Source of the DNA: Desulfonatronum sp.
GTDB taxonomy: Bacteria; Desulfobacterota; Desulfovibrionia; Desulfovibrionales; Desulfonatronaceae
Reading direction: 5' to 3'
NCBI GenBank assembly: GCA_007127655.1
Contig: SKYX01000288.1
Coordinates: 1 to 12,641, forward strand
DNA length: 12,641 nucleotides
Below the pieces are notes generated by a model. The model did no database searches, was not told the DNA's origin, and saw only the letters and a list, made by a program, of their open reading frames with translations. Shown here piece by piece: positions 5,832-9,783 of the stretch. Position 1 is the first letter of the stretch. The number at the start of each line of letters is the position of its first letter. A program made the position numbers and the translations under genes.

Positions 5832-7532
5832 CTACGACTTGGCTGGTTCGCGCATCACCCACCACTGCTGGGCGATGGAAAGGACGTTGTTGACCAGCCA
5901 GTAGAGGACCAAACCCGACGGGAAAGTTAAGAACAAAAAGGTGAAAATGATCGGTAAAAACAGCATGATCTTGGCCTGCATGGGGTCTCCGGGGGCAGGT
6001 GTCAGCTTTTGCTGCAAGAACATGGTCGCCCCCATGATGATCGGGGTGACGTAGTAGGGGTCCCGGGCAGAAAGATCGGCCAGCCAGATGATGTCCGTGA
6101 ATGGCACATGGGTGATGAACGGGGCGTGGCGCAACTCGATGGCCCCCATCAAAGCCTGGTACAGGGCGATGAAGACTGGAATCTGGACGGCGATGGGCAG
6201 GCAGCCCCCCAAGGGGTTGACCTTGTAGGTCTTGTAGAGCTGCATCATCTCTTCGTTCATCTTCTGGCGGTCATCTTTATGCTTCTCGCGCAGCTTGAGC
6301 ATCATGGGTTGCAGCTTCTTCATCTGCTGCATGGACTTGTAGCTCTTCTGGGACAAGGGAAAGAAGATCAGCTTGATGACCAGGGTCAGCAGAATGATGG
6401 CCAGCCCATAGTTGTGGACGTACCCGTGGAAGAAGTTCAGCACCTGGATAAGCGGGCTGGCAATGAGGTCGAACCAACCGTAATGCAGGGCCTCCAGCAG
6501 GTTAGACGGGGCCACGGAGAGGGCTTCGCGTTCCCGTGGGCCGAAGTAGTAGGTGGACCGGAACTGCATTTCCAGTTGGGAGTCCAGGAAAAAGTTCCTG
6601 GTTTCCATGACCAGGCGATGCATGCCGTCTTCAAGCCGTGCCCGGAAGACCGGGTCGGAAAAGCCGGGAATCACGGCGGCCAGAAAGTAATTGCTCTGGA
6701 CCGCACCCCAGAGGACACTGGTGTCGGATCGGATGCCAGGCAGTAAATTTTTGTCTTTCCGTTCCTTTGTCAGGCCATTGATGTCGTAAAACATCACCTG
6801 GGTCGGTGTGTAGCGGTCCTGGATGGCGCTCAACGGTTCGCTGGCCATGGTGAAGCCGAGGGTTGCCCCGATCTGGTTGGGTGAGTGGTTGCGGACCTGA
6901 AGGTGTTCCTCGATCAGGTAGGTGTCTCCGGTGAAACTGAAGGTCCGGACCAGTTCCAGTTGCCCGAAGCGGCCGATAAACGACAGGGAGCCGCGTTCAC
7001 CACGGGTAAGGTCCAGGTTCTGCCCTTCGACGGTCCACTCCCCCTGCATCCATGTGGGTTGGTCATTCCAGAGCAAGCCGAGAGGCCGCTTGCGCGGGTC
7101 AGGAGAGTCGACCAGGTCCACGAATGGGGCGTTTGGCTCAATGGTCTGGCGGAATTGAAGGAGCTTAAAATGTTCCAGCACTCCGCCCTCGGAGTTGAAA
7201 ACCGCTTCGAACAGCGGGCTGCGAACCGTGATCAGCTGTCCTCGGGGCGTCGCTGTGCCGATGAATCCCGGATCCAGAGGTGTTTCCTGTTGGACGCCCA
7301 CCCCTGCTTCCACTCCCTCACTCGTCTGATCCCTCGGGGGGATGGGTTGAGGAGCCAGGGCCGGGTCAATGGGCTGGATTTCAGGGAGTGGTCGTGTTTC
7401 GGGTCGGGACTCGGCGGTTGGGGAGTCTGGTTGGGGTGTCGGCTGCTGGGGAGGAGGAGAGAACATCCAACTCCAGAGGACCAGAAACAATAAGGAAATG
7501 GTGATTGCCAGAAAAGCTCTTTTGTGATCCAT
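5832..7532 (-). CDS. yidC: YidC, membrane protein insertase (Gram-negative type)
   Basis: YidC inserts proteins into the inner membrane, alone or with SecYEG. The 566-residue protein has the Gram-negative design: an N-terminal membrane segment (about 6-24, AFLAITISLLFLVLWSWMF), a Pro-rich linker (26-70), a large periplasmic P1 domain (about 92-335), then the conserved five-helix insertase core starting with YGLAIILLTLVIKLIFFPLS (375-394). Lys387 sits where E. coli YidC has the functionally important Arg366 in the hydrophilic groove. A charged cytoplasmic hairpin (about 396-436, KKLQPMMLKLREKHKDD) and the motif GGCLPIAVQIPVFIALY (442-458) follow. The short basic C-terminal tail ends REPAKS. 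The gene starts 3 bp after the yidD stop and has no clear Shine-Dalgarno sequence, pointing to coupling with yidD. Confidence 0.97.
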   Translation of the reverse strand: MDHKRAFLAITISLLFLVLWSWMFSPPPQQPTPQPDSPTAESRPETRPLPEIQPIDPALAPQPIPPRDQTSEGVEAGVGVQQETPLDPGFIGTATPRGQLITVRSPLFEAVFNSEGGVLEHFKLLQFRQTIEPNAPFVDLVDSPDPRKRPLGLLWNDQPTWMQGEWTVEGQNLDLTRGERGSLSFIGRFGQLELVRTFSFTGDTYLIEEHLQVRNHSPNQIGATLGFTMASEPLSAIQDRYTPTQVMFYDINGLTKERKDKNLLPGIRSDTSVLWGAVQSNYFLAAVIPGFSDPVFRARLEDGMHRLVMETRNFFLDSQLEMQFRSTYYFGPREREALSVAPSNLLEALHYGWFDLIASPLIQVLNFFHGYVHNYGLAIILLTLVIKLIFFPLSQKSYKSMQQMKKLQPMMLKLREKHKDDRQKMNEEMMQLYKTYKVNPLGGCLPIAVQIPVFIALYQALMGAIELRHAPFITHVPFTDIIWLADLSARDPYYVTPIIMGATMFLQQKLTPAPGDPMQAKIMLFLPIIFTFLFLTFPSGLVLYWLVNNVLSIAQQWWVMREPAKS

Positions 7533-7535
7533 GAT

Positions 7536-7838
7536 TCAGCAATTGGGGGGGTTGAGGTTGGCGGCGGCCGGCGGGGATGGAGCAGCGGCGGACCTATATG
7601 CCGTGGACCTGGATGCAGTGGACCGGGGTTCAGGAACCGGGTCCAGGCCGCCTGCACAAAGGGGCTGGCAGCGCAGCAGGCGCCATGCGCTGAGCATGGT
7701 CCCCTTTACAAGGCCGTGCGTTTCCAGTGCATGCTTGGCGTATTCCGAACACGAAGGAATGAAGCGGCAGCTGGGAGGGAGAAGAGGGGAAACGACAAGT
7801 TGGTACCCTCGGATCAGCAGGATCAGCAAGTAACGCAT
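7536..7838 (-). CDS. yidD: YidD, membrane protein insertion efficiency factor
   Basis: This 100-residue protein has the compact YidD (DUF37) pattern. An amphipathic N terminus ([20 protein letters not shown]) leads to the signature [12 protein letters not shown] (23-34), then [19 protein letters not shown] and a final Cys-Gly-Gly-x-DPVP segment. YidD lies at the inner face of the cytoplasmic membrane and aids YidC-dependent insertion. I start at the ATG at 7838 because the conserved sequence begins there; the frame continues upstream by 50 codons through the rnpA 3' end, but that part is unlike YidD. The start lies 16 bp after the rnpA stop with no obvious Shine-Dalgarno sequence. The last 30 residues or so are a Pro/Ala/Ser-rich tail beyond the usual length of about 70-85 residues. 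Confidence 0.93.
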
Positions 7839-7854
7839 GGCGATGAACGCGTGG

Positions 7855-8442
7855 TCAAGGTTGGGGCGTGACCCGGAGGGACCGTCCAGGGCGGGGCTCA
7901 TCTCGCGGAGGAGAGCCAGCGGTTGTCGCCCCGGATTCCCGACGAACCCGCTGCATGACGCCTCGGAAATCCTTCTGGATATCGGCAAGCTTGAGCTGGC
8001 TGATATCGATGCCTCGTTTCACGACCACGATGACATCAGCATTGTCCGGGAACAGGACACGTCCAAGACGGAAGGCTTCGCGAATCAAGCGCTTGATGCG
8101 GTTGCGCCGGACCGCCGTGCCGATCTTGCGGCCCGCGGCGATGCCCAGTCGCGGACCCCGAGCGGGGCAGGGGGCGGTATTTGGCAGAAAAAAAAGGAGG
8201 AAATACCGGGAGTGATATTTCCTGCCTTTGGTGTAACATTGCGTGAATTCCGCGCGTACCCTGATCTTGTCCGCGGGCCTGAGCGTTAAACGCCCAAGCG
8301 TTGGCGGCCTTTGGCTCGACGGCGGCGGATAATGGCTCGGCCGCTTTTCGTCTTCATGCGCGTCAGAAATCCGTGGGTGCGCTTGCGCCGGGTGTTGCTC
8401 GGCTGATATGTCCGTTTCATGGTACTCTCCTTCGTCCTGCAT
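7855..8442 (-). CDS. rnpA: RnpA, RNase P protein subunit, with rpmH nested out of frame in its 5' end
   Basis: RnpA binds the RNase P RNA and helps it mature tRNA 5' ends. The conserved domain runs from about 8298 to 7930: [41 protein letters not shown] and the RNA-binding [14 protein letters not shown] signature. The start is the puzzle. I read every codon of this frame upstream of and into the domain, and between the ATG at 8442 and residues deep in the domain there is no ATG, GTG or TTG. From 8442 the protein is 195 residues, with about 48 extra N-terminal residues (Glu/His/Pro-rich) encoded antiphase over all of rpmH. The 8442 ATG lacks an upstream Shine-Dalgarno sequence. Alternatives are a rare start codon (ACG, ATA or ATT in frame behind the rpmH ribosome binding site) or a later non-canonical start. 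The C-terminal 20-25 residues are Pro/Arg-rich. A T8 run at 8195-8188 lies within the domain, but the protein is intact on both sides. Confidence 0.9.
8286..8420 (-). CDS. rpmH: RpmH, 50S ribosomal protein L34
   Basis: A 44-residue, very basic protein begins [19 protein letters not shown] and continues with [20 protein letters not shown] to a terminal LGV, a full-length textbook L34, a small protein of the large ribosomal subunit. It is preceded by a strong Shine-Dalgarno sequence AAGGAG (8432-8427) six bases before the ATG. It is the first conserved gene of the rpmH-rnpA-yidD-yidC-jag-mnmE block. The whole gene lies inside the extended rnpA frame in another phase (rnpA codons begin one base before each rpmH codon). 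A 5-bp hairpin, AACGC-N4-GCGTT at 8289-8302, covers its last codons and the point where the conserved RnpA domain begins. Confidence 0.97.
8425..8432 (-). promoter_or_regulatory. rpmH: Ribosome binding site of rpmH, possibly shared with rnpA
   Basis: AAGGAGAG on the minus strand sits six bases (counted from AAGGAG) before the rpmH ATG at 8420. It lies downstream of the rnpA candidate ATG at 8442, so it cannot serve that codon in the usual way. It could serve a non-ATG start in the rnpA frame such as the ACG at 8415. Confidence 0.8.
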
Positions 8443-8516
8443 GGGATGCAAATAAGTAGCTATGGGCTGCGTCGTGATCAAAACGAGAAAATTCGTGCCG
8501 TCCTTGAATCAGGCCT

Positions 8517-8560
8517 GGTATCTCGCCGGTATCTCGCCAATATTTCGCCAGTATTTCGGA
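8517..8560. repeat. Four tandem 11-bp repeats upstream of rpmH
   Basis: Four consecutive 11-bp units: GGTATCTCGCC twice, identical, then AATATTTCGCC, then AGTATTTCGGA. The period is exactly 11 bases with TAT-TCG constant in all four. They lie 97-140 bp upstream of the rpmH start, in the gap between rpmH and the radical SAM gene. The near-helical period would place the copies on almost one face of the DNA, as in repeated protein-binding sites; simple tandem duplication without function is equally possible. Confidence 0.85.
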
Positions 8561-8567
8561 GGTTGCG

Positions 8568-8585
8568 CCGAACCGATACGTTCGG
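8568..8585. repeat. Inverted repeat CCGAAC-N6-GTTCGG
   Basis: Perfect 6-bp arms around a 6-base centre (CGATAC), just beyond the 11-bp repeat array. It may be part of a regulatory or structured region upstream of rpmH; no known family of operators was recognised. Confidence 0.5.
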
Positions 8586-8637
8586 ATACCGAGGGATCTC
8601 ACGCTTTCGTTCGGTTTTCCGACGCACGTCGTTAACT

Positions 8638-8649
8638 GTCGAATTCGAC
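8638..8649. repeat. Perfect 12-bp palindrome GTCGAATTCGAC
   Basis: A fully self-complementary 12-mer, preceded by another GTCG and by the palindrome GTTAAC (8631-8636). It lies between the radical SAM stop and the rpmH upstream repeats. It could be an operator; chance is not excluded. Confidence 0.5.
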
Positions 8650-8709
8650 TCCTTACAAAGAGGCGTCCATGGAGTCAAGGTGTTGGTCGACAAGCAGGAC
8701 AATCCGGGA

Positions 8710-9783
8710 TCATTTCTGGAGGGAGTCCGCGAGGGACGTCACCAGAAAATATGGACGCTCCCAACACCGGACGTTGGACGGGGCTAAACCCAGACGTCGC
8801 CATACGCCGACGTGTTCGCGTTTGTGCCCCCAGAACTCGGCTGCGAAGCGTTTCGGAACGAATATTAGGCGAGGGGCTTCGGGTAGTGCAGACATGGATA
8901 GGGTGAGCCAGGCTCGCAGGGCGTGGGATTTGGCCATGTACCCCAGGGCCGGGTGCCAGGGGCCGGCCTGGATTGCTGGAGTCAGTGTCCCTTCCGGGGC
9001 AAGCCCGATTCGGATCACTGGAATGCCCTGGCGCCACAAGGAATTCAGGGCCTGGCTCACGGCCCAGATCGTCCGGGACAGGGACCAGGGGCGATAGGAA
9101 CCCGCGCGGTGGGCTTGGCTGAGCGGGGTATCTCGCAGCACGAGACAGGGATAAATGCGGACGGCTTCGGGGGTCAGAGCGAGGGTTTGGTCGACGTCCC
9201 GGAACCAACCGGAAATGGTCGAGCCAGGCAGGCCGGGCATCAGTTGGACGCCCAGTTCCAGGCCGGACTTGCGAACCGTAAGGCAGGCTTGCACGGCGGT
9301 TTCGGCTTCGTAACCTCGTCGGGATTGGCGCAGAATCTCCGGCTCGAAGCTTTGCACTCCCAGTTCCACCATGTTCAGGCCGTTCTCGCGCAGCCAGGAA
9401 AGGTGGTTCGCCTTGATGCTGTCCGGGCGGGTGGAGCAACGGACATGGGTGATGGTCCCTGCTACTCGGTGCGGTTGTACGGTCTTCAAAAACCGTTCCT
9501 GCCACTCCACGGGCAGGGCCGTGAACGTCCCGCCGTAAAAGGCGATCCCGAGACCTTTCGAGCCGTTTGTCGTCTGTAGTCCCAGGTTTTGGACCATTTT
9601 GGCATGAATTGCTTCCAGCGCCGGTCCTTCTGCCGCTGTATGCACGCCGTTGGCCATGCCGGTCTGCAGGTGCTGGGCGCAGTAGAGGCAACGGTGCGGG
9701 CAGCCGTGGTAGGGCAGGAAAATCGGGATGATCCGAAGACGCTTTCGGACGGGTTCCGGGTGAAGAAGGCGGAGCTGGTTCAT
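8710..9783 (-). CDS. Elp3-like radical SAM protein
   Basis: This 357-residue protein carries the radical SAM signature CPHRCLYC (Cys28, Cys32, Cys35) that binds a [4Fe-4S] cluster and S-adenosylmethionine. The glycine-rich AFYGGTFTALP (81-91), RCSTRPD (115-121), ENGLNMVELGVQSFEPEIL (133-151) and QLMPGLPG (180-187) follow. The opening IIPIFLPYHGCPHRCLYCAQ and the overall pattern fit the COG1243 branch: Elp3-related proteins without the C-terminal acetyltransferase, widespread in bacteria and of unsettled substrate. A HemN/HemW-type role is less likely, since the signature here is CxxxCxxC in an HGCP context and no HemW C-terminal domain is seen. The start is the ATG at 9783, where conserved sequence begins; no strong Shine-Dalgarno sequence is visible. 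The frame remains open far upstream but only as an antisense shadow of the HIT gene. It is divergent from that gene, 201 bp away, and stops 289 bp before the rpmH start. Confidence 0.88.
   Translation of the reverse strand: MNQLRLLHPEPVRKRLRIIPIFLPYHGCPHRCLYCAQHLQTGMANGVHTAAEGPALEAIHAKMVQNLGLQTTNGSKGLGIAFYGGTFTALPVEWQERFLKTVQPHRVAGTITHVRCSTRPDSIKANHLSWLRENGLNMVELGVQSFEPEILRQSRRGYEAETAVQACLTVRKSGLELGVQLMPGLPGSTISGWFRDVDQTLALTPEAVRIYPCLVLRDTPLSQAHRAGSYRPWSLSRTIWAVSQALNSLWRQGIPVIRIGLAPEGTLTPAIQAGPWHPALGYMAKSHALRAWLTLSMSALPEAPRLIFVPKRFAAEFWGHKREHVGVWRRLGLAPSNVRCWERPYFLVTSLADSLQK

Follow-up and report, generated by a model that had tools for sequence, protein, structure and literature searches.

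The overlap of rnpA, the gene of the RNase P protein, with rpmH, the gene of L34, in Thermus was reportedly described by Feltens and colleagues in PNAS in 2003. The closest known arrangements are of two kinds, one concerning the overlap and the other the start codon. In the available part of one account (PMC9841429), Thermus is named as the one bacterium for which such a start site has been described. Initiation at AUU is known from infC and pcnB of E. coli (available excerpt of PMC1780047) and from cvfC1 of S. aureus, in which, according to the accessible part of its source, the AUU reduced protein output and is conserved among staphylococci (PMC13009471). Apart from Thermus, a literature search that fell short of most subscription journals returned no published description of an AUU-started rnpA or of an overlap between the RNase P protein and L34.

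The window, that is, the whole 12,641-nucleotide stretch of Desulfonatronum sp. DNA analysed here, carries on its minus strand the gene order rpmH, rnpA, yidD and yidC (Table 1). The RnpA domain is read in the -1 (= +2) frame relative to rpmH, which is wholly enclosed, out of frame, by the rnpA reading frame; the earlier note had proposed this nesting, and the frames, the domain matches and all seven loci found in the genus confirm it. The locus thus resembles that of Thermus, where, in the part of PMC9841429 available, rpmH also lies whole and out of frame within an N-terminally extended rnpA and the two ATGs are near each other. Unlike in Thermus, the two ATGs of the window's genus are 22 nt apart with the Shine-Dalgarno between them, and the order also holds a probable precursor state with an AUU start. 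A single upstream Shine-Dalgarno serving both starts, as in a Thermus-type arrangement, was not found in the genus. The in-frame standard starts of rnpA are TTG 8481, TTG 8451 and ATG 8442; the earlier note had listed 8442 and 8481, both of which are real, and had overlooked TTG 8451. Between ATG 8442 and the RnpA domain there is no usable standard start, either in the window or in any of the seven genus loci, and the next one, TTG 8088, lies past the conserved RNRIKR block, which bears out the start-free gap described before. The same holds for the 195-residue RnpA, of which 48 residues precede codon 8298 and run antiphase over L34, and for the AAGGAG downstream of ATG 8442. No Rfam family matched the window at the gathering threshold, and no promoter was found by a consensus scan of positions 7500-9000, a result that speaks neither for nor against a leaderless rnpA transcript. 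Elsewhere, at 768-2537 on the minus strand, a 589-residue reading frame rich in CxxCH motifs (by eye) resembles a multihaem cytochrome of sulfate reducers.

Table 1. Features of the rpmH-rnpA locus, in window coordinates
Feature	Position	Strand	Evidence
rnpA read from ATG 8442 (195 aa), made up of the RNase P protein domain and, antiphase over rpmH, a 48-residue extension	7855..8442	-	Same layout in 7/7 genus loci
RNase P protein domain	7945..8274	-	Pfam PF00825; E 1.2e-24 when read from 8481 (208 aa)
Terminator-like hairpin (8223-8198) followed by a T run, within rnpA and 65 nt past the rpmH stop	8188..8223	-	Fold
Hairpin around the rpmH stop codon	8271..8307	-	-21.1 kcal/mol, z -2.9
rpmH (L34, 44 aa)	8286..8420	-	Pfam PF00468 E 2.6e-22; NCBIfam TIGR01030
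Codon homologous to the RnpA start: CTT in the window, ATT in 127/164 same-spacing loci of the order	8296..8298	-	
AAGGAG, rpmH Shine-Dalgarno, within the proposed rnpA coding sequence and between both ATGs	8427..8432	-	Sequence; pairing
ATG, proposed rnpA start, 22 nt 5' of the rpmH ATG	8440..8442	-	Conserved 7/7; pairing energies: without Shine-Dalgarno in 6/7 genomes

The locus is present in seven of eight sampled genomes of the genus; since L004 and L005 do not differ around the junction, the seven count as less than fully independent. The remaining genome (G002; 1.6 Mb, listed as 90% complete) gave no rnpA match. In all seven loci an ATG stands 22 nt 5' of the rpmH ATG with GAAGGAG in the space separating them, the rnpA frame is open across rpmH and the start-free gap is present, so that the gap and the antiphase extension, whose conservation the earlier note had proposed to check, are both kept. 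The ATG at -22 is invariant and most positions immediately upstream of it are variable; among the codons tested (ATG, GTG, TTG, CTG, ATT, ATC and ATA), ATG 8442 is the only one conserved in all seven. Near-cognate starts in the gap, such as ATA 8409 and ATC 8265, were rejected as unconserved across the genus. The open frame was also rejected as the main proof, being weak evidence given that it survives about 72% of synonymous codon shuffles within rpmH in this genus. On sequence grounds, the joint occurrence of the ATG at -22, the open frame and the start-free gap in 7/7 loci exceeds chance. Pairing with the 16S tail at ATG 8442 averages -0.63 kcal/mol in the genus against a background of -2.70, and only one of the seven loci reaches -5.1. 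Eight public proteins of the clade (P0001-P0008) have a Met at the place of this ATG (by eye), in two of them within a longer called protein; this agreement is weaker, biased evidence because gene callers favour standard starts. We consider it likely that translation of RnpA in the Desulfonatronum-type genus begins at ATG 8442 and runs through rpmH in the -1 frame, an ancestral AUU inside the 3' end of rpmH having been lost and the upstream ATG having taken over.

The proposed ancestral state was sought in the order, in which 330 of 348 genomes matched. A total of 188 loci, covering 57 of 59 genera, were classified; they comprise the matches listed with coordinates (minus G082) and 40 genomes picked for genus spread, minus L217 at a contig end, and leave 142 of the matched genomes outside the counts. 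In 164 of the 188 loci (hereafter, same spacing), all with rnpA in the -1 frame of rpmH, the conserved Phe/Tyr of RnpA lies 41 nt downstream from where the rpmH stop codon begins. A usual position for the RnpA start is 17 codons before this residue, as seen in 10 of 16 loci outside the order that have a standard start. At that position, homologous to codon 8298, ATT occurs in 127 of the 164 same-spacing loci, from 33 genera. The rnpA frame contains a stop within rpmH in 60 of these 127 loci, and 76 have no standard start whatever; the frame is open through rpmH in 67, against 30.1 expected from codon shuffles. An open standard start within 60 nt upstream is present in 33 ATT loci (ATG in four), a standard start inside rpmH in 10, and a TTG near the domain start in four; at the loci with such an upstream start or TTG, ATT is not the sole option. 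The four loci in which ATT coexists with an open upstream ATG (L021, L136, L165 and L169) are possible intermediates between the AUU start and nesting.

The AUU-start state, defined as an ATT in the rnpA frame 10 nt upstream of where the rpmH stop begins, is absent from the window and its genus, where the codon equivalent to 8298 is CTT, GCT or CCT. The 37 same-spacing loci without ATT (11 genera, g16 being mixed) are all open through rpmH and all have some standard start, which in 35 of them lies within 60 nt upstream of rpmH. The start types include ATG at -22 in the window's genus, ATG at -4 in g54 and g31, ATG at -4, -7 or -13 in g37, and others in single genera; three loci (g6 and g45) have a start close to the domain. 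One locus without ATT, L071 (G228), is open through rpmH with a sole standard start at an implausibly distant ATG (-178), and has ATA at -7, ATT at -22 and ATA at -28 upstream of rpmH. In all 24 loci with other spacings a standard start precedes the conserved residue by 10 to 35 codons, and the old site is ATT in one. The earlier note had named an ATG, GTG or TTG in relatives at the place of codon 8298 as evidence against its reading; no such codon was found there, and relatives carry ATT instead. A rare start at this codon, one of the options considered in the note, is unavailable in the genus and suits most of the relatives examined; among those options, ATG 8442 has the best support.

ATT as a phylum-wide trait was rejected. 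A strict L34-tail pattern, which misses QKG-type L34 (g39) and matched none of the 17 order genomes in the phylum draw (the others being g1, g31 and g32), was found in 18 of 395 phylum genomes. Seventeen of these loci were classified (L146 was wrongly positioned by the script; L148 has no RnpA match), and ATT at them looks coincidental because 16 have a standard rnpA start, in 10 cases 17 codons before the conserved residue.

Codon usage within the order speaks for the ATT as a start and against a codon accident. Read in the frame of L34, 97 of the 127 loci have AGA TTA at this site. Its leucine is encoded by TTA in 107 of 127 cases as against 1 of 203 for the other leucines of L34 in the same genes, and AGA precedes it in 115 of 127 cases as against 305 of 1435 elsewhere; ATT in the rnpA frame forces this TTA into L34. 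The preceding codon varies (AGA, CGA, AAA or CAA), and the ATT is nonetheless retained. The mean pairing with the 16S tail is -5.96 kcal/mol upstream of ATT and -4.38 at the same place in loci without it, compared with -7.88 at 164 rpmH starts and -2.70 in the gene body; this is non-independent evidence, since the conserved Lys-Gly codons of L34 supply part of the pairing. Public protein entries beginning exactly at the ATT, read as Met (123 or 129 aa), match 12 loci; for other ATT loci the matching entries start 11 to 56 residues later, at internal starts (e.g. 112, 104 or 67 aa), and L096 has both kinds. The relatives' rnpA would resemble infC, pcnB and cvfC1, as portrayed in the available parts of PMC1780047 and PMC13009471, in having a poor start codon behind a Shine-Dalgarno-like sequence. 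Unlike in those cases, the putative AUU start belongs to relatives and not to the window, the gene is rnpA, and the codon lies within rpmH and is kept in 33 genera.

In a quick, weak tree of L34 and RnpA from 89 loci, the ATT and non-ATT states require eight changes, at least two of them forced by well-supported branches. ATT is present in families f2, f3, f4 and f6; it is absent from f1, from parts of f3 and f6, and from one g16 genome out of three. These changes and this distribution point to repeated loss of ATT from what we infer to be the ancestral state. Probably, rnpA originally began at AUU and several lineages moved to other starts, mostly nested, as suggested by ATT accompanied by stops or by the lack of a standard start in relatives, and by open frames with a standard start at the non-ATT loci.

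According to this reconstruction, the ancestral rnpA start would have been an AUU codon within the 3' end of rpmH, as most examined same-spacing genera still appear to have it; in the window's genus the codon would have changed to one of the three triplets seen there, with the upstream ATG replacing it. Translation starting at ATG 8442 would then cross the whole of rpmH, in the -1 frame, before reaching the RNase P protein domain. The footprint of the ribosome would keep two initiating ribosomes from occupying starts 22 nt apart, and initiation at rnpA and at rpmH would thus compete for ribosomes. L34, with its good Shine-Dalgarno, would be made in excess; less RnpA would be expected because its start has none.

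The 48-residue extension that such translation would produce is probably a tolerated passenger, since it is unconstrained, has low predicted order and precedes the part matched by known structures. The synonymous-site constraint over rpmH predicted in the earlier note was tested and is absent: the L34/domain ratio is 1.00 in the genus, and no extra constraint appears in the 18 genera scored as ATT (0.52-2.68). Residues 1-50 have a mean pLDDT of about 45-49 in a model built from only seven sequences, and solved RnpA structures align only from about residue 54 onward. In its lack of extra constraint and its low pLDDT, the extension is of the weakly constrained kind expected of a Thermus-type arrangement.

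Two hairpins accompany the junction. The one at the rpmH stop, already pointed out in the earlier note, is real (41 nt folded; 1 of 200 shuffles equally stable) and is not retained throughout the genus: L001-L003 have a strong form, in L004 and L005 it reaches -11.1 kcal/mol, and in L006 and L007 it gives way to different weak folds. The other, inside rnpA, consists of 10 bp followed by a T run that Phe/Leu codons partly supply. In six of the seven genus members its 39-nt stretch has a folding energy of -16.4 to -19.0 kcal/mol, a stability matched by 0 to 2% of synonymous samples; in L007 the helix is kept, mostly as A-T pairs, at -7.1 kcal/mol (40% of samples equally stable). Of the 157 remaining same-spacing loci, 16 have a fold of -12 kcal/mol or below, to which three add a T-rich tail, as against six of seven in the genus. 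As judged from its sequence, this hairpin could truncate transcripts past rpmH whenever no ribosome is translating the rnpA frame. A wider scheme that includes it is conceivable but doubtful. In the Desulfovibrio order, the output of an ancestral AUU-started rnpA would have hinged on the translation of L34 and on how far initiation factors discriminate against AUU, and lost AUU codons would have been replaced repeatedly by the nesting of rpmH; in this genus, the intragenic terminator-like hairpin would in addition end transcripts past rpmH unless held open by a ribosome in the rnpA frame. The regulatory tie between the RNase P protein and L34 suggested in the earlier note is an inference.

The stop-codon hairpin bears on whether a non-standard codon close to the end of rpmH (for example ATC 8265 or ACG) serves as the RnpA start in this genus too, through hairpin-aided reinitiation after L34. 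Such a start would fit the ATT that is the rule at the rpmH end in relatives and the lack of a Shine-Dalgarno at ATG 8442. It is nevertheless unlikely, as the ATT position has other codons throughout the genus, ATC 8265 is replaced by CTC or GTC in three of the seven loci, and both the ACG after the stop and the hairpin are missing from L006 and L007. The same hairpin, with the -1 offset at an exact spacing in 164 of 188 loci, could also be taken for the mark of a frameshift near the rpmH end from the rpmH into the rnpA frame, yielding an L34-RnpA fusion; a codon that varies before an unchanging ATT is, however, ill-suited to a fixed slippery site, and the genus has no ATT, which makes this reading very improbable.

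Initiation at another upstream codon, TTG 8451 or 8481, both in frame and open, has a small probability, given that the TTG at -31 exists in only four of the seven genus loci and that at -61 in two. An assembly or sequencing error that erased a normal start might be suspected in a genome in 439 contigs and 84% complete, but the identical arrangement in 7/7 genus loci, including the one-contig genome G001 (listed completeness 99%), makes it scarcely credible. The nested arrangement has counterparts beyond the genus: the Thermus spacing itself, with the rnpA ATG 4 nt 5' of the rpmH ATG, is found in genera g54 and g31, where the mean pairing at the ATG at -4 is -5.2 to -5.3 kcal/mol and a single Shine-Dalgarno for both starts, as in Thermus, fits.

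Nested rnpA genes thus occur in further lineages beside a probable AUU-started precursor, with a few loci that have both, so that the birth of a whole-gene overlap becomes traceable. The arrangement also explains the uneven annotation of rnpA, whose database entries begin at the ATT or at internal starts, and suggests a way of tying RNase P output to ribosome synthesis.
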